Shown: positions 1,971 through 46,333 of the stretch, piece by piece
How positions within the stretch are numbered: the stretch's first letter is position 1
How the letters are laid out: each line of letters opens with the position of its first letter
Source: Deltaproteobacteria bacterium
Lineage (GTDB): Bacteria > Myxococcota_A > Polyangia > JAAYKL01
Reading direction: 5' to 3'
Assembly: GCA_016935665.1 (NCBI GenBank)
Contig: JAFGQN010000052.1
Span: 1 to 52,115, forward strand
Length of the DNA stretch: 52,115 nt
The notes under the pieces: generated by a model
The model's input: only the letters and a program-made list of their open reading frames with translations
What the model was told of the DNA's origin: nothing
Databases searched by the model: none
Translations under genes and position numbers: made by a program

Positions 1971-4900
1971 TCACCACATGCTTTTTAAGGATTCGCCGTG
2001 GGCGTCGGTGGTGGGAGCGTTTTTGGGGTCTTCGGGCAGGGCGATGAGGGCAGTGCCGTCCATGTTTTGCAAAACGGCTTCAAGGTTGGCCTTTTGCTGG
2101 GCCTGGGCAATTTTTTCCAGCGCTTCTTTCTGACGTGCCAGCTCCACGTAGGTGCGTGTGTTTTTAACGGCTTTGTCAAAATTCAATGCGTTGTCGTGGC
2201 ACAGGCCCAGGTAATAGTATACGTCGGGGTGGCGCTCCACGTAGCCGGCGTGTTCCCGGGCCAATTCGGTAAGAATATCGATGGCATCCTCGCACTCGGT
2301 ACTGTCGGTGGGACTGGCGTTTCGAAAATGCAGATAGCCCTTCATGTGCATCATGGTCGGTCCCCCGCGACGCCACAGTTTATCGGGCAGTAATAAAAAC
2401 TGTCCCAATGCAAACTGGTATGCCTTTTTATCAAGAGACTGCTTCATGGCGGCCATGCCCTTTTCCAGCTTCGCTATTTCGGACTTACGCATGCCCGCGG
2501 CCGGGGTCACCGCTTCGAACACGGGATCATCCGCCACGGCGCGTCCCTGCAATAAAAGCAGCATGCGCGCGGCCAAATCCACCTCGGGGTTCTGTTTGTC
2601 AATGCGCAGCGCTTCTTTCACAAATGCGGCCGCCTGTTTCTTGCGGCCATTCATCAGCAGTGAAACCGCCATATGCGACAGGTTCACCGCTTTTTGCTCA
2701 CCGTCTCCAACGCCCAAAAGTCGCCCGTGCAGATGACCGAATTTCCAGCTGCTGGTATATATGGTGGCCAGGTAACCGGCGAACCGGCGAAATGAAATCA
2801 AATCCCTGGGCGCCGCAAATTCAATGTGGGCGTTGTCATCGGTGTTGATGGGCAGCTCATCCCACTTTTCCTCATCGGGACCATTGGTGTAGGCGACAAC
2901 CTCGTCACGATCCGCCAGAAGGATGCGCGCAAACACATCGGTCGCGCCAAAAATATAGGCGCGGTTCATCTCTTTTTGCACTCTGGGTTCGCTGATGATT
3001 TTGTTCACCCGCTCCAGATTGAATTGGAGTGGTTCGAACGAGCCCAGCAGCACGGTGTCTGAAGACAGATCTTCAGCGGTGAACAGCATCACGTGGGGAT
3101 ACACGCTGGCAAAGGTGCGAAAGATGGTTTTGATATTCTCCGGCGACATTTCGTACAGCTGCACCCACTGCGCAAAGATACCGTCTCTTTTCAGCGCCCG
3201 CGACGATGATCGAAACGCATCCGAAGTGAACATATTGGAAACACCGGTAATCCACGGATTGGATGGTTCGGAGATGATCACGTCATATTTTTTTGGCGAA
3301 GCCGCCAAAAAGTTTCGACCGTCGTTGGCAAAAACCGAGAGACGATCATTCACTACGAAGGTATCGGGATCATTCCAGTTGAATTCGGGGGAGTCCTGAC
3401 TGCGATACACCAAATGGTTCACATCAAATTCGGGTTGTACCGGCGCCCCCTGCACGCCGCCAAAAACCGATGACGCTTCAATCACTGCGCTTTCCAGCTC
3501 CACGCAATCCACGTGTTTAATGGGAAATTCCAGCGCCGCGCCCACGGTAACGCCGGAGCCGAATCCCACAATGGCCACGTCCAGGTCTTTGGGGCCTTTG
3601 GGATGCAGCAGCAGCGGATAGGCCGAAACCATCACCTGTGTGGGCATGTCGTCGCCATTGGAGGCATCGACCTTGCCGTTGTTTTTCAGGGCGATGTGTC
3701 TGCCCCACATTTCAATGGACACGGTGGTGGTGACGCCATCAAAGTAATACTTAATATCCGGCGCTCCCCAGCTTTCCTCATCAAGGGCATCTTCCATCAG
3801 CGAGATGCGAAAGACGCCAATGGTGAGTTTGGCGGGATCCCATCCGGGCGCCTGAAGTAAAAACAGCGCCGTCAGTGCCGCCACCGGCGCCGCCATCACC
3901 GCCCGCCGCGCGAGTTTGAATCCAGGGGTGACCAGAAGCAGCGCAAAGCCGATGGCCGCGTAAATGCCCACCGATAAAAAGTAAGAGCTCTGCATTCCGG
4001 CGCCATCGAACGACCGGGAAAAAAAGGGCACAAATACAAATGCCGACAAAAAGGACCCGCAAATGGCGCCAAGTGTATTGAGCGCGTAAACGCTGCCCAC
4101 ATCCTTGCCAACGCTGTCTAAAGATGCCGTTACCGCCTTGATGGTTAGCGGAAAGGTGGCCCCCATGCCAAACGTCACCGGCACCACTGGCAGCGATGCC
4201 ACGAGAAACATGATAAACTGCACCAGTCCCACATGCTCTTCGTAGTCATCGATATTGGCGGTGACCATTTTAGCAAAAAGATGAGGCAGGTCGTCGATAT
4301 AGAGATAGCTCACCATGGCCAAAGCTGCGATGACCAGCTCCACCAGCGCCAGAAACAGCACCGGATTGCGCATGCGTTTTGAAAACTTTGAAAACGTGGC
4401 GGAACCTGCGGCCAGACCAATGAGAAACGCGATGAGCACAATGGCAAACGAGTACACCGACGAACCGATGATCATGGCCATGGCCCGATTCCACACCACC
4501 TGAAGGTTCATGGACGCCAGTCCAGACAGAAAAAAGGCGAACACCACAAACCAGCGTGTCAGTTTTGAAATGGGCAGCATTTCCACCGCTTTTTTATGGA
4601 ACAGATCCGCCTCGTCCAGCTCCGGGTCGTCTTCGGGCGGAAGGGCATCGTCATCATTGGCGCGTTCAATGCGATTACGATATAAAAGGATCCCCGCACA
4701 CAGCACCAGATTAATGACACCGGCAGTGACGTTGGTGGCCCACAGGCCAATGGTTTTCAGCAGTATAAATGTAGCGCCGAACACGCCCAGCACTGCCCCA
4801 ATAGTGTTTAATGTGTACAACAGTCCAATGCGTTGACCCGCGCGCTTCATATGCGCTGCGTTGCGCATGAAGTGTCTGGAAAGCAGCGGCAACGTGGCCC

Positions 4901-5288
4901 CCATGCACGTGGCCGGTATAATCAGCACCAGCGCCACCGCCACAAAACGCACCACCGAAAACAACAGAAAGTTGTTCCCCAGGTGGGCAGTCATGGCCGC
5001 GTTCACATGGGGATACACGTGATGAATGATAAAGGGGATAACAAACGCGCACACGCCCACCACACCCTCGGCAATGGCGTATGCGGCCACGGGCTGTTTA
5101 ATGCGATCGGCATACTTGCCAAACAGCCAGGAGCCCAGCGCCAGTCCGCCCATGAAACAGGTGAGCACAGTGGACACCGCCAGAGTGGTGGCGCCGAACA
5201 CGTGTTCCAAATAGCGAATCCAGATGGTCTCCAGCGTCAGGCTGGAAAAACCGGATAAAATAAATGCGGTCAGTACAATTGGGTGCAC
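1971..5288 (-). CDS. MFS-like membrane protein fused to spermidine-synthase fold
   Basis: Large integral membrane protein (1105 residues) of the fused MFS/spermidine synthase type. Residues 1-480 hold about a dozen or more hydrophobic segments in two homologous halves: LSGFSSLTLETIW near residue 11 is echoed by LSGLASMNLQVVW near 254, and MGATLPL near 129 by MGATFPL near 375. Residues about 510-830 form a Rossmann methyltransferase-like domain with a VGFGSG SAM-type loop (574-579), an acidic VELES strand end, and SEPSNPW (673-679) where true aminopropyltransferases have an Asp-rich motif. The last 250 residues are helical, TPR-like. A GTG start is chosen because AAGGA lies seven bases upstream. 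It begins 18 bases after pyrE. Polyamine synthesis is not assured, because the catalytic motif is altered; a transferase acting on an exported or membrane substrate is possible. Confidence 0.8.
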   Translation of the reverse strand: MHPIVLTAFILSGFSSLTLETIWIRYLEHVFGATTLAVSTVLTCFMGGLALGSWLFGKYADRIKQPVAAYAIAEGVVGVCAFVIPFIIHHVYPHVNAAMTAHLGNNFLLFSVVRFVAVALVLIIPATCMGATLPLLSRHFMRNAAHMKRAGQRIGLLYTLNTIGAVLGVFGATFILLKTIGLWATNVTAGVINLVLCAGILLYRNRIERANDDDALPPEDDPELDEADLFHKKAVEMLPISKLTRWFVVFAFFLSGLASMNLQVVWNRAMAMIIGSSVYSFAIVLIAFLIGLAAGSATFSKFSKRMRNPVLFLALVELVIAALAMVSYLYIDDLPHLFAKMVTANIDDYEEHVGLVQFIMFLVASLPVVPVTFGMGATFPLTIKAVTASLDSVGKDVGSVYALNTLGAICGSFLSAFVFVPFFSRSFDGAGMQSSYFLSVGIYAAIGFALLLVTPGFKLARRAVMAAPVAALTALFLLQAPGWDPAKLTIGVFRISLMEDALDEESWGAPDIKYYFDGVTTTVSIEMWGRHIALKNNGKVDASNGDDMPTQVMVSAYPLLLHPKGPKDLDVAIVGFGSGVTVGAALEFPIKHVDCVELESAVIEASSVFGGVQGAPVQPEFDVNHLVYRSQDSPEFNWNDPDTFVVNDRLSVFANDGRNFLAASPKKYDVIISEPSNPWITGVSNMFTSDAFRSSSRALKRDGIFAQWVQLYEMSPENIKTIFRTFASVYPHVMLFTAEDLSSDTVLLGSFEPLQFNLERVNKIISEPRVQKEMNRAYIFGATDVFARILLADRDEVVAYTNGPDEEKWDELPINTDDNAHIEFAAPRDLISFRRFAGYLATIYTSSWKFGHLHGRLLGVGDGEQKAVNLSHMAVSLLMNGRKKQAAAFVKEALRIDKQNPEVDLAARMLLLLQGRAVADDPVFEAVTPAAGMRKSEIAKLEKGMAAMKQSLDKKAYQFALGQFLLLPDKLWRRGGPTMMHMKGYLHFRNASPTDSTECEDAIDILTELAREHAGYVERHPDVYYYLGLCHDNALNFDKAVKNTRTYVELARQKEALEKIAQAQQKANLEAVLQNMDGTALIALPEDPKNAPTTDAHGESLKSMW

Positions 5289-6983: not shown

Positions 6984-7901
6984 CTATTTGCAATTAAAGA
7001 ATGAACAAACCGAATCAGATGTATATCCGCCGGCGCCTTCATTCAGGTCCGGGTCATAATAGGTTACCTGTCGATCCTGATTGCCGGCCAGATAATCCGC
7101 GCACGTGTATCTGGGGCCAACCCCCGTGAAACACTCCTGAACTTCGGTGGCATTGTCAGAACAGAATGCATAACAAATGTCATTTATACAACTGCTCCAC
7201 CCACCTATTGGACCGCAGTAGGGATGAATGACCACCGTAAATTCGGGTGTTTCCACTTCCTTATCGCCCTGAGTATGACCAAGGAAACGCACCGAAGAAT
7301 ACATGGTCTCCTCTGAGACTTCATAATCAACCAACCTTGCAAACTCGGCATTGGCGCTATTGGCGATAGCGGCTTCGTCTGCAGTAAGCGTCGTTCCTCT
7401 CAGAGCCTGCTCATTGCTCACAAACGAATAAAAAATCAAATCGGCGATTCGTGCACTGGAATAATACTCACATCTGTAGCGCAAACGCAGGAAGTCGATG
7501 GTGTCCGATGTCATGAACTGAGACCACAACAAACCGGTGCTTTCAGCGTCCAGGTAGGTGTTGTAATCAAAATACTGAACGCCCCCTATTGTACCGTACC
7601 CCGGAACCACCGTGTACAACTCGTAGCCATCCACCTGAATTCCGTTGGATTCAGCGCGTAAACGGCCATAGTCTTCTCGTGACGCCACTGCATTTGTCGC
7701 CTGAAAAGATGCGTGGGGCATATTGGCGGTCATGATATTCAGGTTCACAAATGGCATTTCCTTATCCCCGATTGATGACGAACATTCCGGGGGTTCGGGA
7801 GAAACCTTCATGTGTTCGATGTAAAACGATTGCTCGTTTTCCTTACAGCCCAGTGCACACACCAGCAGAAGAAAGCTTAAAACCAATTGCATGCGTTCCA
7901 T
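6984..7901 (-). CDS. Cysteine-rich lipoprotein of unknown function
   Basis: 305-residue exported protein. A short signal peptide ends in LVCALGC, a slightly off-consensus lipobox. The mature part has no recognised domain; the C-terminal 80 residues hold eight cysteines (CGPIGGWSSC, ICYAFC, ECF, CADY, VCSFFNC), which suggests disulfide-bonded structure outside the cytoplasm. The start at 7901 has GGAGG six bases upstream; the in-frame ATG at 7967 lacks one. It lies 80 bases after pilQ on the same strand, so it may be transcribed with the pilus operon, but a role in pili is only a guess. Confidence 0.75.
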   Translation of the reverse strand: MERMQLVLSFLLLVCALGCKENEQSFYIEHMKVSPEPPECSSSIGDKEMPFVNLNIMTANMPHASFQATNAVASREDYGRLRAESNGIQVDGYELYTVVPGYGTIGGVQYFDYNTYLDAESTGLLWSQFMTSDTIDFLRLRYRCEYYSSARIADLIFYSFVSNEQALRGTTLTADEAAIANSANAEFARLVDYEVSEETMYSSVRFLGHTQGDKEVETPEFTVVIHPYCGPIGGWSSCINDICYAFCSDNATEVQECFTGVGPRYTCADYLAGNQDRQVTYYDPDLNEGAGGYTSDSVCSFFNCK

Positions 7902-7981
7902 CGGATGCCTCCCTGATTTGCCCCCGAAAGCGCGGTTGCCTTTTTCATTATAATTCATAATTGACATCTTTTCACCTTCAG

Positions 7982-10900
7982 TTACTGCCCAATGCTTTCG
8001 GCCCGGTTCACGATGGTCGGTGTAATGAAAATCAGCATTTCAGTTCGTCTGTCCGAATCGGACCGGGATTTGAACAGCCATCCGAGGATGGGAATATCGC
8101 CAAAGAACGGCACCTTTTTATAACTGCGACCATGGTTGCGCGTAAAGATGCCGCCGATTACCGCCGTGTGCCCATCGTTCACCAGCAACTCGGTCTTGGC
8201 TTCCCGTTTCAAAATGGTGGGGTCGCCGCGGGCACCCTTGTTATTGAAATCCGGTTCATCCCGAGTCATGTTAATATCCAATAGAACAGAACCATCCGCC
8301 GTCACATGGGGCGTTACGGTCAGATTCAATTTCGCTTCTTTGAATGAGGTCTGCACACCGCTGGCCGACACCCGGCTATAGGGAATCATCGTACCCTGCT
8401 CAATGTGCGCCTGACGATTGTCCAACGTGAGAATTTTGGGCGAACTCAAAATCCGCAGTGTCCCCTCCTCTTCCATTGCGCTCAATCGCAGATTCAGATT
8501 GGCGTTATTGGAGATGGAGCCCAGAGAAATGCCCAATGCACCACCGGACCCCGTACCTGTCGCCGCCGGCAGATTCACTGCAAAGTTCGGATTCGGCTGC
8601 CCACCGGCCACAGGAGACAATCCCGCGAGCGGGGCGTTACCGTCTGTGGCGCCACCGGCGACACCCACAGAACTGGGGAATCCCAAACCGGTTGGATTTC
8701 CGGTGGCCGAACTCGCCGAAAAGTCACCCCCCCATTGAATACCAATTTCACGAGCATATGTGCTTGTGGCTTCAACAATTCTACCTTCAATCAACACCTG
8801 TGGCGTCTGCGTATCCAGATTGCGAATCAATGCCTCAACCTGATCAAGCACGTCTGCCACATCCCGCGCAATGATCACATTGGTGCGCGCGTCCACGGAA
8901 AGTTTGCCGCGATCGGACAACAAGTCATTGGCACGGGGCATCAACTCTCCCGCTGTTGCATACGACACCGGAATCAATCGTGTTTCCAGAGGTTTCAACT
9001 CTTTGCTCATCTTGATTCGCTCGATTGCCTTTTCGTACTCCGCTTCAAGTACCGAAAGGGGCGCCACGCGAATCAGGTTGCCCTGTTTCACCTTTCCAAG
9101 CCCTTTGGTCTGCAGAATGACATCCAGCGCCTGATCCCAGGGCACATCCCGCATCCGTATTGTCACCGATCCCGTCACATCGTTGGATGTAATAATATTG
9201 ACATGCCCCACGTCCGCCAAAAGCCTTAAAATGTTGTGAATGTCCGCGTTCTTGAAATCCAGATCAATTCGACGCCCCGTGTAACGTTCCTTTTGCTGCG
9301 ACAAATCCGCCAGTGTTACCGAGTACGCCGCCGTTCGCTCTGTGGGATACGCATATGCGTCATTTTTCTCCCGATGGACCACCCGGGATGCACTGCCCAG
9401 AGGAGCCGCACTATCTTTCCCCATGGATTCGGCATCCACAAACAGCCATTCGATGGCGCCATCTTTTACCTTTACCTTGTTTGTCGCATGGCGTCCCAGC
9501 TTCACCTCAACGCGCACCTTGCCGTCCTGCTTAAATGAACTGATGGAATTTATCACGCCCCCGAAATCACGTACATCGAGAGTGCGTTCCAACATGGGCA
9601 ACAGCCGCGCGTTCTCGAACTCCATGACCACGATGCGACTGTTTTTCTCGGACTTGGCGTATTTGAATTCGCCGTTTCCGTTAATCACCACCTTTTGGCT
9701 TGAGCCCTTATTGACAAATTTAATGTCCTGAATGGCATCCTGTCGCAACTCTTGTTTGGAAAGTGGTTTGTCCACTTTCGCCAGCGGTACACGCGTGGGA
9801 ACGCTTTCCCTGGCAGCCGCCGGTGTTGTCTTTGCCGATTTCGATTTTGTTTTCGACTTGCCCTGCAACGCCGCCAGCCGCTGCAACCGAATTTCCTCCT
9901 GAGTCAATCCCTTTTCCTTATTGGGCGCCGGCAAAGGTGCAGCTGCCACCATTGCCGGTTTGGATTCCGTACTTGTTTCAGGCGATTTACTCTTATCAGC
10001 GTGCCGTGCCGTTTCTTTCTCTTTTTCCACCTGCGCTTTTTGGGCTTTCTCGAGTTCGGCCACCTGTTCCGCTCTCGCTGCCGCCACGGCTTTTGCTGTT
10101 CGCGCCTCCGCTGCCTTAATTTCCTGCTCTTTTTCAATTACGCTTGCGGCCAGCTTCTGTTTTTCGGCAATGGCGGCTTCCGCTTCCGCTCTCAAACGAG
10201 CCGTGCGCTCCTCTGCCTTCGCCTGGTCTTCTTTTGCTCTGGCAGCTGCAAGTTCCGCCCGTTTCAGCGCTTTTTCACGCTCATTGTCTGCCCGCTTTGC
10301 CGCTTTTTCCGCGTCTGCGGCTTCTGCTTCCAAAAGTGCTATCCGCTGCTTTTGTGCCACAATCGTCTGATTGGCATCATTCAGCCGTTTTTCAACCGTT
10401 CTGATTTTGGAAACCACATCCTGTGTCTGCGTCCGCGCCAAAGTCGCCACTTTTTCCGCATCGGTAACCCGGCTTTCCGCCAGTTTCAATTTCGCCGACA
10501 CCTCTCGCTTCCATTTTTCGGCGGTGGCCACGATGCGCGCCTTTTCCGCTTCGTGCTGCGCCAGCATTTTTTCTTTTTCCTGGTGCGCGGCTTTTACTTC
10601 GGACTCTGCTTTGGCAACAGCGTCACCCAACGATGCCAGTTTTCGTTCGTACTGTACCCGTTGCACCGAAATGGCTTTTTCCGCAGTCAATCGTGCATCA
10701 TCGGCCCGTTTGCTGTTGTGTTCCGCCACCTTCAACGCTTTGAAGGTTTCATCCAGTTTCTGCTCAATGGCAGCGTATCTGTTTTCCGCGTCAGCAAATC
10801 GTTTTTTAGCTTCCACCGTTTCGCGCTGACGCTGTTGCAACTTGCGATACAGTTCATCCCTATCTTTCTGATTCGCTGCCTTATAAGCGGACTCCGCTTC

Positions 10901-12160
10901 GCGCTGTGCGTCTCTTGCCTTTTTTGCTTCCCGTCTGGCAGACTGCTTCTCAAGAAATGCGGTTTTCACATCGCCTTTCATACTGGTGACGGCCTGTTCG
11001 GCTTCGTTTTTCTCCCTATTGGCTTTCGCTGCTTCTGCTTTCACACTCGTCAGCTGTTGTTTCAATGCATCGAGCCGACCTTCCAGCTCAGTCCGCTGCG
11101 CTCTCTCCCGTGTCGCCGCCTCCTTTGCCTCAGTCACTTTCCGGGTCAAAACGGCAATCTTCCGGGACGCATCCTTTTCAAATTCCGATATCTTTCGAGT
11201 GCTGCGTTTTGCGCTGTTTTGCTGCTCTTTTTCGAGGCGAGAGAGCTCATTTTGCGCCAGTTCCGCTTCGCTTTGCGCTTTTTTTAACTGGGCATCGTAA
11301 TGAACCTGTTTCGCTTTTAACTTATTTATTTCGGCACGAGCCATTCGCCACTTGCTCTCGGCATCCGATGCACCAGTCTGTGCGAGCTTCACCTCATCTT
11401 GCGCCGATGAAATTTTTTCCTTCGCACTATTGGCTTCCTTTTTGGCATTGGCGGCTTCCGACTTCGCTTTGGCGATTTCTTTTTTGGCCTTCTCCATAGC
11501 AGCTTCGATCTCTGCCTGGGCTGCTTTTTCGGCCTGAGCCACACGTGCATCCGCCTCGGCCACACGCGCTTCCGCCTGAATCCTGGCGTTTTGGACTTCA
11601 GCTGTCGCTTTCTGCTCCACCTGTTTCACACGTTCATCAGCAGACTTTTCGACGGCTTTGATACGTTGCTCCGCATTGGCCAGAGAAATCACCTGCTCCT
11701 TTGGAACCTGCGGCTCCTGTGCCGATTCTTTTTGTGGCCCTCCACTAAGCGTCACCTCCAATACGTTGCCCTTCACCTTTACGCGGTACGATGCTTCCTT
11801 CCTGAAGTTGATCATCACCCGACTTACCCGCACCTTGCCAGTGGTGAATTCAGACACTGCGACGCCACCGACCAGTGTTGTCGATTTCTCAAGCAACGCC
11901 GGAACCCCTTTGAGTGAACTGTTTGCCAAATCCAGCACCAGTCTTTTGGGAGTGGACAGCTTAAACGCAGTATACATGGGTCGCGATGACCCCTTCACTG
12001 TGACCACCGTCTGACTTCCACGCTGGACCACATCCACTGCATGAATCTGGTTGGTTTTTCCTGGCGCGGCAGCCATCGTGGTGCCGGCGCAAACGGCAAC
12101 CGCAAAAGCCACAATCAACGCTTTTACAAGTCTGTTTTGTGTGATTCGGGACCTGTTCAT
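7982..12160 (-). CDS. pilQ: Type IV pilus secretin PilQ with long coiled-coil insert
   Basis: Outer-membrane secretin that forms the pore for the type IV pilus. Domain order in 1392 residues: signal peptide (1-31), first AMIN domain (about 38-140), a continuous Ala/Lys/Glu heptad-like region (about 155-720), a basic/Pro linker, second AMIN domain (about 808-910), STN domain (about 960-1035), N1-type secretin domain with ARTNVIIARD (about 1055-1115), and the secretin barrel (about 1115-1385) with a Gly/Ser-rich insertion and the VPFFGDIPILGWLF signature. The coiled-coil block roughly doubles what is usual before the STN domain. The start has AAGGAGAGGACA just upstream. It is last of pilM-N-O-P-Q, 146 bases after pilP, a gap that may hold a separate promoter. 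Confidence 0.95.
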   Translation of the reverse strand: MNRSRITQNRLVKALIVAFAVAVCAGTTMAAAPGKTNQIHAVDVVQRGSQTVVTVKGSSRPMYTAFKLSTPKRLVLDLANSSLKGVPALLEKSTTLVGGVAVSEFTTGKVRVSRVMINFRKEASYRVKVKGNVLEVTLSGGPQKESAQEPQVPKEQVISLANAEQRIKAVEKSADERVKQVEQKATAEVQNARIQAEARVAEADARVAQAEKAAQAEIEAAMEKAKKEIAKAKSEAANAKKEANSAKEKISSAQDEVKLAQTGASDAESKWRMARAEINKLKAKQVHYDAQLKKAQSEAELAQNELSRLEKEQQNSAKRSTRKISEFEKDASRKIAVLTRKVTEAKEAATRERAQRTELEGRLDALKQQLTSVKAEAAKANREKNEAEQAVTSMKGDVKTAFLEKQSARREAKKARDAQREAESAYKAANQKDRDELYRKLQQRQRETVEAKKRFADAENRYAAIEQKLDETFKALKVAEHNSKRADDARLTAEKAISVQRVQYERKLASLGDAVAKAESEVKAAHQEKEKMLAQHEAEKARIVATAEKWKREVSAKLKLAESRVTDAEKVATLARTQTQDVVSKIRTVEKRLNDANQTIVAQKQRIALLEAEAADAEKAAKRADNEREKALKRAELAAARAKEDQAKAEERTARLRAEAEAAIAEKQKLAASVIEKEQEIKAAEARTAKAVAAARAEQVAELEKAQKAQVEKEKETARHADKSKSPETSTESKPAMVAAAPLPAPNKEKGLTQEEIRLQRLAALQGKSKTKSKSAKTTPAAARESVPTRVPLAKVDKPLSKQELRQDAIQDIKFVNKGSSQKVVINGNGEFKYAKSEKNSRIVVMEFENARLLPMLERTLDVRDFGGVINSISSFKQDGKVRVEVKLGRHATNKVKVKDGAIEWLFVDAESMGKDSAAPLGSASRVVHREKNDAYAYPTERTAAYSVTLADLSQQKERYTGRRIDLDFKNADIHNILRLLADVGHVNIITSNDVTGSVTIRMRDVPWDQALDVILQTKGLGKVKQGNLIRVAPLSVLEAEYEKAIERIKMSKELKPLETRLIPVSYATAGELMPRANDLLSDRGKLSVDARTNVIIARDVADVLDQVEALIRNLDTQTPQVLIEGRIVEATSTYAREIGIQWGGDFSASSATGNPTGLGFPSSVGVAGGATDGNAPLAGLSPVAGGQPNPNFAVNLPAATGTGSGGALGISLGSISNNANLNLRLSAMEEEGTLRILSSPKILTLDNRQAHIEQGTMIPYSRVSASGVQTSFKEAKLNLTVTPHVTADGSVLLDINMTRDEPDFNNKGARGDPTILKREAKTELLVNDGHTAVIGGIFTRNHGRSYKKVPFFGDIPILGWLFKSRSDSDRRTEMLIFITPTIVNRAESIGQ

Positions 12161-44482: not shown

Positions 44483-45295
44483 TTATGGACAAAACACGAT
44501 TTCGTAGTCTTCACCGGCGCAGGCGGCCATGGAATCCGCATCGTCGCCCGACCATGAGTAGGCGTCGGCGCATCCCTCTTCAAAGTACTGTGCGACAGGG
44601 CTATTGGGATTGTCCCGATCGGGACTCACACAGGACACCAACCGACCATCCATTAAAAACCGTCCTTCGGCTGGACAATTGGTCAGCAGTTCCTGTTTAC
44701 ATGCGAGCACTTTGCAGTCGGGCATCTCCAAAGGCACAATGGCCATGGGGAGATTATGGGCGTCCACGTGACTGATGTTGTACCAGTCAAAGTCGTAAAA
44801 ATCCGTGTTCAGTGTCATTTCCGCCAGGGTGTGATGTTCACCGCCCGGGTCCGGTCCAATATATCCCCAGTATCGTTTCGATGAAATCGTCTCAACGTCC
44901 GAACCCAAATCGCGACATACCGATTGACCCGCTGCCAATTCACCACTCTCAATATCGCTGCCTTTGAAGTTCAGCGTGTCACTGCATTTGTTTATAAACA
45001 CAAGTGTTGTTTTGCTGTCGCCCGTCTTCGCACACTGCGCAGCTGTCGGTTCATCGGTAGAGTCCTGACCTGTGGCAGAATCATTTGCCGTGCCAGTGTC
45101 AATGCCCGTATCAGGTGTGGAACCCGTGTCAGTGGGTGCACTGTCACTCACTGTGTCAACCGCCTGCACCGTGTCATCTTCATTCGTGTCATTTACATTC
45201 GAGGTGCTGCTGTCTGAACAACCGACATAACTGCCCCACATCAGGACCAACACCCAAAACGAATCTTTACCGGACTGTATCAATCGCTTCTGCAT
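44483..45295 (-). CDS. Thaumatin-like lipoprotein
   Basis: 270 residues. The signal peptide ends in SYVGC, followed by a Thr/Asp/Ser linker of about 60 residues. The mature domain fits the thaumatin family: TLVFINKCSDTLNFKG at its start, YWGYIGPDPGG, DFDWYNISHVDAHNLPM, CPAEGRF-like Cys pairs, and the ending CADAYSWSGDD and YEIVFCP. Plant and fungal members bind or cut beta-1,3-glucan. The gene starts 12 bases after the GH128 gene, with AAGGGG seven to eight bases before its ATG, so both surface proteins are made together. Confidence 0.88.
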   Translation of the reverse strand: MQKRLIQSGKDSFWVLVLMWGSYVGCSDSSTSNVNDTNEDDTVQAVDTVSDSAPTDTGSTPDTGIDTGTANDSATGQDSTDEPTAAQCAKTGDSKTTLVFINKCSDTLNFKGSDIESGELAAGQSVCRDLGSDVETISSKRYWGYIGPDPGGEHHTLAEMTLNTDFYDFDWYNISHVDAHNLPMAIVPLEMPDCKVLACKQELLTNCPAEGRFLMDGRLVSCVSPDRDNPNSPVAQYFEEGCADAYSWSGDDADSMAACAGEDYEIVFCP

Positions 45296-45307
45296 ATCGT
45301 TATCCCC

Positions 45308-46333
45308 TTACTCGCAATCCGACCACGGCGCATTCACATAGGCCTCGCCCAGCGCTGTTAATGCGCCGTCACTGCCCAGCAAATCCACGTTCACCATATT
45401 ATCTGCCCGACCGGCAAACCATGCGTAGCGTTCGATACGCGGTTCACTCTCAAGATACGCCACCGCATCTTCCAAAAAGGCGCGCTGCTCCGCCTGGGAT
45501 GGATTTTCCGAGCAGGCAAATTCGGTCAGCCACAACGGTTTGTCAAAGGCACTTTTATACATCTCCACGTGATTAATGAGCCACTGGGCCCGATTGTTCT
45601 TCAAACCGTCGCTGTTTTCGTCGCATCCCACGTAAATATGAATGGCAATGGCATCCACACGACATCCGTCGCAGGCCTTAAAAAAATCATTGAGATATTG
45701 AACAGGGCCATCGCTGTGACAGCCGCCGCCGCAAAAATTGACCGCCGGAGAAACCAGTTTCAAACCTTTGGCATCGGCCACCGCTTCCAGTTCGGGCCAC
45801 ATGGTCGCTGCCTGTGTGGCTGACAAATTGGCCTGAGAAAAAAAGTTGGGCTCGTTGAATCCCAACATCACCTGTGCGGCGTCGGGAATCCCGCCCTGCA
45901 CATCGCCAATGCTGTAATTGTCTCCCCAGCGCATGGGAACAAACTCAACATTGTAGGTAGACCATTGACTGCCCAGTTCGCTGTCCGGCGCAAAATACCA
46001 GTTGTACCACCAGCTGACTCCGTCGGCCAGCGCCGCCATATCCGCAGGAGAATGATGGCCATACGCCACGCCCCGTTTGCACGATTTGGTCTGTACACTT
46101 ATCGCTGTGGCCGTGTCTGAATCCGTTCCGTTGTCGCTTTCATTGATCCCGGTCGCACTGTCACCAGACAGCGTATCCGCCAGGGTCGCGCTATCCCCTT
46201 GCGAATCGCCGATATCCGCCGACTCGGTATCGCTCACGCTCCCACTGTCAGCATCGTCTCCACATCCTGCCCCGCCCAACATCACAAACAGGCTCGCAAC
46301 AACAGTCATCCACTTTAACTTGAACATGAACAC
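45308..46333 (-). CDS. GH128 endo-beta-1,3-glucanase-like lipoprotein
   Basis: 341 residues. Lipobox GGAGC (Cys24), a Ser/Asp/Thr linker to about residue 83, then a TIM-barrel glycoside hydrolase of family 128: KRGVAYG, VSWWYNWYF, VEFVPMRWG, LGFNEPNFFSQANLS and WLTEFAC. Glu161 (in FNEPN) and Glu271 (in LTEFAC) stand where the acid/base and nucleophile lie. The family cuts beta-1,3-glucans such as laminarin and curdlan. AAGGAG is six to seven bases before the ATG. It is first of a two-gene operon with the thaumatin-like gene. Confidence 0.92.
   Translation of the reverse strand: MFMFKLKWMTVVASLFVMLGGAGCGDDADSGSVSDTESADIGDSQGDSATLADTLSGDSATGINESDNGTDSDTATAISVQTKSCKRGVAYGHHSPADMAALADGVSWWYNWYFAPDSELGSQWSTYNVEFVPMRWGDNYSIGDVQGGIPDAAQVMLGFNEPNFFSQANLSATQAATMWPELEAVADAKGLKLVSPAVNFCGGGCHSDGPVQYLNDFFKACDGCRVDAIAIHIYVGCDENSDGLKNNRAQWLINHVEMYKSAFDKPLWLTEFACSENPSQAEQRAFLEDAVAYLESEPRIERYAWFAGRADNMVNVDLLGSDGALTALGEAYVNAPWSDCE

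Follow-up and report, generated by a model that had tools for sequence, protein, structure and literature searches.

How is the outer-membrane gate of a type IV pilus held in place, and what might a coiled coil of several hundred residues contribute to that gate? Type IV pili can pull with well over 100 pN, and the way in which the gate withstands this pull is understood only in part (AMIN domains, TsaP). The question is raised by the pilQ gene of a member of the Deltaproteobacteria (assembly GCA_016935665.1), which encodes a type IV pilus secretin with a long coiled coil inserted between its two AMIN domains. The gene lies on contig JAFGQN010000052.1, a stretch of 52,115 nucleotides, hereafter the window, which is one whole contig of an 8.16 Mb genome.

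A coiled coil between two AMIN domains

The window protein is a member of PilQ, with a rod added to a known kind of secretin. Its parts follow the order signal peptide, AMIN1, coiled coil, AMIN2 and secretin; the NCBIfam PilQ profile (TIGR02515) matches residues 962–1385 with 441.6 bits, against a cut-off of 284.35, and Pfam finds AMIN twice together with STN (PF07660), Secretin_N (PF03958) and Secretin (PF00263), the latter three over their cut-offs. When the PF11741 profile was searched against the organism's own genome, both PilQ matches, at 11750–12037 and 9479–9727, exceeded the cut-off. An original prediction, made from the DNA alone, had placed an unbroken coil of about 565 residues between the AMIN domains. 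It is confirmed as 568 residues (155–722), the predicted boundaries being right to within about 10 residues, with 0 Pro, 4 Gly, 22.5% Ala, 14.3% Glu and 13.4% Lys. The term unbroken holds for the absence of Pro but has to be qualified by a break of two residues, 429–430, in the AlphaFold2 model described below.

With a re-implemented COILS scorer and a retyped matrix, 514 residues of this region were scored as coiled, compared with 194 ± 53 in composition-matched shuffles and about 3 in the shuffled remainder of PilQ. The 3.5-residue hydrophobic periodicity reached z = 9.6 relative to shuffles. Together these values show that the coil is more than biased composition, and an Ala/Lys/Glu composition artefact is ruled out for the window PilQ. 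The coiled-coil prediction that had been suggested for this protein thus bears out the heptad pattern, and a compact non-coiled domain, which had been named as the outcome that would refute it, is excluded by the AlphaFold2 model and the periodicity. Most other coils tested gave z = 7–16, including one of 1669 residues. The exclusion of a composition artefact does not extend to the coils of L054 and L118, in which no heptad signal was found (L, f and G labels denote PilQ frames, their families and genomes in our survey, the window PilQ belonging to f1). Not all rods are therefore classical coiled coils, a point that counts against the outrigger reading given below.

The survey of relatives combined searches of class, phylum and named genome records with the DNA around matches, and yielded 156 distinct PilQ frames. 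A search for the AMIN-coil-AMIN order, also proposed at the outset, found an AMIN domain before and after the coil in all 84 coil-bearing PilQs that are complete at the N terminus, with a median of 13 residues from the end of AMIN1 to the start of the coil. An assembly error joining two genes is excluded by the recurrence of this order in 84 of 84 independent relatives, and it is very unlikely at the coil-bearing L145 because that genome is a single contig of 5,045,683 bases. Coil length ranges from 214 to 1669 residues with a median of 497. The longest coil has 0 Pro and lies in a PilQ frame of 2444 residues (L133:153-7484, minus strand). The 57 complete coil-less PilQs have a median linker of 34 residues between AMIN1 and AMIN2 where two AMIN domains are present. 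The earlier remark that usual PilQ proteins lack the coil is true of the characterised ones, but the coil is common in this phylum. One PilQ match in the survey (L153, G253:C113:14436-16178) has a single in-frame TGA inside its 1300-residue frame. Nine genomes of the same class (G085–G089, G023, G031, G043 and G047), several of them near-complete at 9–13 Mb, gave no PilQ match at E 1e-60 and appear to have lost their type IVa pilus gate.

The coil occurs across much of the phylum Myxococcota and, judged from its distribution, is old. On a quick FastTree tree of the secretin core (153 rows), its presence and absence require seven changes, compared with about 45 when labels are shuffled, although this count does not prove direction, and frame breaks may explain some isolated rows without a coil, L066 among them. 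Coil-bearing groups run throughout one large set, within which coil-less groups are nested (f5, the f11 + f14 group, L074–L077, L083 and L132); the outermost groups of the tree are coil-less, and the coil-less PilQs include a large sister group. One old gain followed by several losses fits this pattern best.

Within the coil, sequence changes quickly, as in L034, which shares 57% identity in the coil and 96% in the secretin core. Family coils hold conserved blocks, namely the turn motif, W-R-x-A-x-E-I-N-x-L and L-x-x-A-N-x-T-I-x-x-Q. Between close pairs, the differences include blocks of 63, 14 and 7 residues. Tandem units in relatives measure 7, 14, 21, 28 and 49 residues, and those in other clades 9, 18, 25, 36 and 50. 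From these blocks and units it follows that the rod lengthens at least partly by repeat duplication. At the DNA level the window pilQ has only short, weak tandem repeats, and for this copy an origin by repeats of that kind was rejected, although they are plain in relatives. Both coils without a heptad signal consist of such tandem repeats, and the helix is retained more strictly than the coiled-coil seam. Individual cases include L044, whose coil is enlarged at residues ~550–840 by 21-residue tandem repeats (three heptads); its close relative L038, which has 21-residue repeats and is without a 63-residue block; and L054, where coil residues 291–744 are near-identical 9-residue units, AEAQAKADK. 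A SGASSPD-like break follows these units at about 74% of the L054 rod and is common to L050, L052, L064 and L096.

Predicted shape of the rod

AlphaFold2 was run on the AMIN1-coil-AMIN2 part of the window PilQ as a monomer, with 52 sequences. The model consists of two helices, 175–428 and 431–704, separated by two residues and followed by a low-confidence linker and AMIN2. Its mean predicted local distance difference test score (pLDDT) is 78, rising to about 90 or more around the turn, and its predicted template modelling score (pTM) is 0.32. If each residue adds 0.15 nm, the arms of about 254 and 274 residues would be about 38 nm long. Foldseek matched the model rod to antiparallel hairpins (PrgA, Rad50, SMC, MukB and chemoreceptor) and the model AMIN domains to PilQ and AmiC (root-mean-square deviation 2.5 for AmiC). 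In the window PilQ and its close family, the rod is thus predicted to fold back at about residue 430 as an antiparallel hairpin.

Two patterns in f1, obtained independently of AlphaFold2, are consistent with this model. When its members are split at the turn motif, the arms covary in 9 of 12 over a range of 173 to 325 residues (r = 0.93; N/C lengths 277/291, 280/261, 233/247, 207/189, 202/207, 193/211, 325/322, 276/318 and 173/194), the remaining three, L044, L038 and L042, having been left out only after the data were seen. The conservation profile of the family is best mirrored about residue 435, the first-ranked of 440 axes and five residues from the predicted turn, in a search made with the AlphaFold2 result already known. 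Between the window PilQ and L035 the indels are also paired (−40 at 5% and −45 at 92% of the coil); as a general sign of a hairpin, such pairing was not seen in other clades. In the distant L145, AlphaFold2 gives a helix-turn-helix at a Gly-Asn loop, QGNES, with a pLDDT of about 95 over the stretch and arms of 95 and 151 residues, and a loop is present at this place in most of that protein's family, yet the two arms do not covary in length there. A helical turn is likely in the window PilQ and in some others.

Several observations weigh against so simple a picture. L044, L038 and L042 have unbalanced arms, and with all 12 members of f1 included the correlation vanishes (r = −0.03). Arms do not covary in f37 (r = 0.03), and in the 85 coils compared the spot of lowest helicity lies away from the centre. 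A monomer run of AlphaFold2 may bend long helices back on themselves as a matter of course, and the pTM values are low (0.32 and 0.41). Arms of equal length are no general feature of the group, the turn being off-centre in other clades, and a universal central hairpin marked by Pro, Gly or Asn was not found across the coils. For the window PilQ itself, of the shapes first considered, one straight helix of about 80 nm is unlikely given the predicted hairpin, the arm covariation and the mirrored conservation; the same three features, the covariation applying to most of f1, favour the fold-back option. The further option envisaged at the outset, in which AMIN domains bound to peptidoglycan form a tether or collar, would fit the strict AMIN-coil-AMIN order.

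Possible role of the rod at the cell wall

The most likely reading, held at somewhat short of even confidence, is that the rod serves as a cell-wall outrigger for the pilus gate. AMIN1, the first and putatively cell-wall-binding domain, would sit at the end of a long coiled-coil rod on an otherwise ordinary PilQ, and the rod would lie along or through the cell wall rather than span a deeper periplasm. With one outrigger per subunit of a presumed 12–15-mer ring, AMIN1 could grip peptidoglycan away from the pore, such that the pulling load of pilus retraction might be spread over more of the wall. In that case nothing would keep the rod of a given lineage from drifting in length, in agreement with the variation observed. 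Experiments in Myxococcus xanthus led to the proposal that the AMIN domains of PilQ bind peptidoglycan at the septum and the poles; recruitment of PilQ depends on these domains (PMC10653833). Median lengths of PilN, PilO and PilP are 216, 199 and 212 residues in systems with the coil, compared with 215, 200 and 215 in those without; proteins of such ordinary size make a strut through a deeper periplasm unlikely, and a deeper periplasm is unsupported by them.

Neighbouring subunits might instead wind their coils in parallel, holding AMIN1 far from the ring in a straight rod or an in-plane envelope bundle like the SlpA trimer. The heptad register is preserved without a partner arm by indels that are unpaired (63, 14 and 7 residues) and by units of 7, 14, 21, 28 and 49 residues, a 12–15-mer ring brings chains together, and Pro-free runs reach 1669 residues. 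We consider this parallel arrangement unlikely, however, in view of the high-confidence AlphaFold2 turn and the arm covariation and mirror axis in f1; a straight rod, moreover, would be about 85 nm long here and about 250 nm in L133. Docking of a partner by the hairpin, be it a polar landmark, TsaP, a pilotin or the PilNOP platform, with the AMIN domains only recruiting the complex to the septal wall, would account for conserved blocks inside the coil that look like more than spacer, and has a precedent in the polar recruitment directed by the AMIN domains of M. xanthus PilQ (PMC10653833). Yet the coil diverges fast (57% versus 96% for the secretin core in L034) and grows by repeats, and a partner gene accompanying the coil was not found: the gene that follows pilQ has matches in f1 and f5 alone, of which f5 is coil-less. 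A scaffold of this kind is rather improbable.

Much of the variation would be expected if the rod were a tolerated linker, drifting by repeat slippage and having the joining of two domains as its sole role, since coil length varies eightfold and tandem repeats and repeated losses are seen. This neutral expansion is hard to reconcile with heptad periodicity over hundreds of residues, the near absence of Pro from coils, the retention of AMIN1 in every complete coil-bearing protein and the conservation of the turn in f1, and we regard it as improbable. Least probable is a strut that reaches across to the inner membrane and determines how deep the periplasm is, as may be the case for TolA-like helices or the enlarged pilus parts of Thermus. 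A hairpin of 38 nm is indeed near the 30 nm of a periplasm, and in Thermus, whose periplasm measures about 70 nm, PilW is about 60% longer than PilP (PMC13039148). But PilN, PilO and PilP are not enlarged here, the rod is flanked by AMIN domains and no membrane segment is apparent past the signal peptide, and rods of 1669 residues would be too long.

The outrigger reading has difficulties of its own. Its main weakness is the fold-back hairpin, which brings AMIN1 near AMIN2 and thereby reduces the reach that an outrigger needs. Telling against it too are a weak rank correlation of PilN and PilO length with coil length (rho ~0.28–0.29) and the related lineages that keep pilMNOPQ without a rod, from which it follows that the rod is dispensable in evolution; a search for measurements of binding, localisation or force turned up none on a PilQ with a coil. 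Extended to much of Myxococcota, the outrigger reading would equip the pilus gate with at least a dozen helical outriggers, whose length would be tens of nm and perhaps beyond 100 nm. They would hold cell-wall-binding domains away from the pore as a force-spreading foundation for a pulling machine, of a kind not known to have been described in a secretin; this broader picture is possible but doubtful.

The locus and its counterparts in known systems

The pilM, pilN, pilO and pilP genes lie upstream of pilQ in the same direction, giving the order pilMNOPQ (Table 1). PilB and four PilT-family proteins score above cut-off elsewhere in the genome, and with these motors pilus retraction is likely; by its gene content, the system is an ordinary retractile type IVa pilus. 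The low-confidence linker that follows the coil contains a short helix, TQEEIRLQRLAAL, conserved in the family.

Table 1. Features of pilQ and its upstream genes in the window; residue numbers refer to PilQ.
Feature	Position	Strand	Basis
pilQ, type IV pilus secretin with AMIN-coil-AMIN N-terminal region, 1392 residues	7982–12160	-	One intact open reading frame; Pfam; NCBIfam
Signal-peptide-like N terminus, residues ~1–30, MNRSRITQNRLVKALIVAFAVAVCAGTTMA	12071–12160	-	By eye from sequence
AMIN1, residues ~37–138	11747–12052	-	AMIN search, 40.5 bits; AlphaFold2 beta sandwich, pLDDT ~95
Coiled coil, residues 155–722, 0 Pro	9995–11698	-	Composition, periodicity, relatives
Predicted helix 1 (N arm), residues 175–428	10877–11638	-	AlphaFold2
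Predicted hairpin turn, residues 429–430, inside motif YKAANQKDRDELYRKLQ	10871–10876	-	AlphaFold2; mirror axis at residue 435
Predicted helix 2 (C arm), residues 431–704	10049–10870	-	AlphaFold2
Pro/Ser/Lys-rich low-confidence linker, residues 705–800	9761–10048	-	AlphaFold2
AMIN2, residues ~811–903	9452–9730	-	AMIN search, 42.4 bits; Pfam; AlphaFold2
N0/STN, Secretin_N and secretin pore, residues ~961–1392	7985–9280	-	Pfam; NCBIfam
pilP, 216 residues	12307–12957	-	Pfam PilP, 22.0 bits, below cut-off of 25.6; named by position
pilO, 188 residues	12969–13535	-	Pfam, 97.1 bits
pilN, 220 residues	13550–14212	-	Pfam, 39.2 bits
pilM, 353 residues	14213–15274	-	Pfam and NCBIfam; 270.3 bits, cut-off 133

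Directly downstream of pilQ is a gene of 327 residues (6984–7967, minus strand) with a Cys-containing, lipoprotein-like start and no Pfam or NCBIfam match; its relatives adjoin pilQ in f1 and, weakly, in f5, which is without the coil. A fusion of 1105 residues (1971–5288, minus strand) joins MFS-type transporter, spermidine-synthase-like and TPR parts; L035 and L047 retain it at a place downstream of both pilQ and pyrE. Elsewhere in the window, at 44483–46333 (minus strand), a thaumatin-family protein lies next to a glycosyl hydrolase (Glyco_hydro_cc). No Rfam match to a structured RNA was found in the window.

The PilQ proteins of M. xanthus, with three AMIN domains, and Pseudomonas aeruginosa, with two, share the AMIN, N0 and secretin pore parts and the pilMNOPQ order seen here; in M. 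xanthus, however, the AMIN domains are joined by flexible linkers, whereas here a coiled coil of 568 residues separates AMIN1 from AMIN2. Thermus thermophilus PilQ is likewise unusual, forming a channel of about 35 nm from stacked rings in a wide periplasm (PMC4463427). Its length comes from several ring-shaped domains (putative N0–N5), unlike the coil here, and a text search of that paper, which did not extend to the Thermus sequence, found no mention of a coiled coil. Nor does the main text of a survey of myxobacterial pilus systems mention coils (PMC6060248), and no description of a coil in PilQ was found in the open full texts searched, most subscription journals and preprints lying outside the search. 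The resemblance of the rod to the hairpins of PrgA, SMC/Rad50/MukB and chemoreceptors is one of simple fold at 7–18% identity, with no evidence of kinship.

A parallel in layout is SlpA/OmpM of Deinococcus, which also combines an N-terminal cell-wall domain, a long coiled coil and a C-terminal outer-membrane pore, and which works as a connector between the outer membrane and the wall (PMC9388160). SlpA differs in having an SLH rather than an AMIN domain, a homotrimeric, parallel coil of about 28 nm and a 30-stranded barrel in place of a secretin; no SLH domain was found in a Pfam scan of the window PilQ, whose pore is a secretin, and we do not claim homology. By analogy, the window PilQ may work like SlpA without being a member of that family. 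Across the phylum, the same pore occurs either without a rod or with rods of 214 to 1669 residues, from short to very long. This natural experiment makes it testable whether force, polarity or assembly depends on the distance from anchor to pore, and it adds a secretin architecture missing from the Pseudomonas, Neisseria, Thermus and Myxococcus models.

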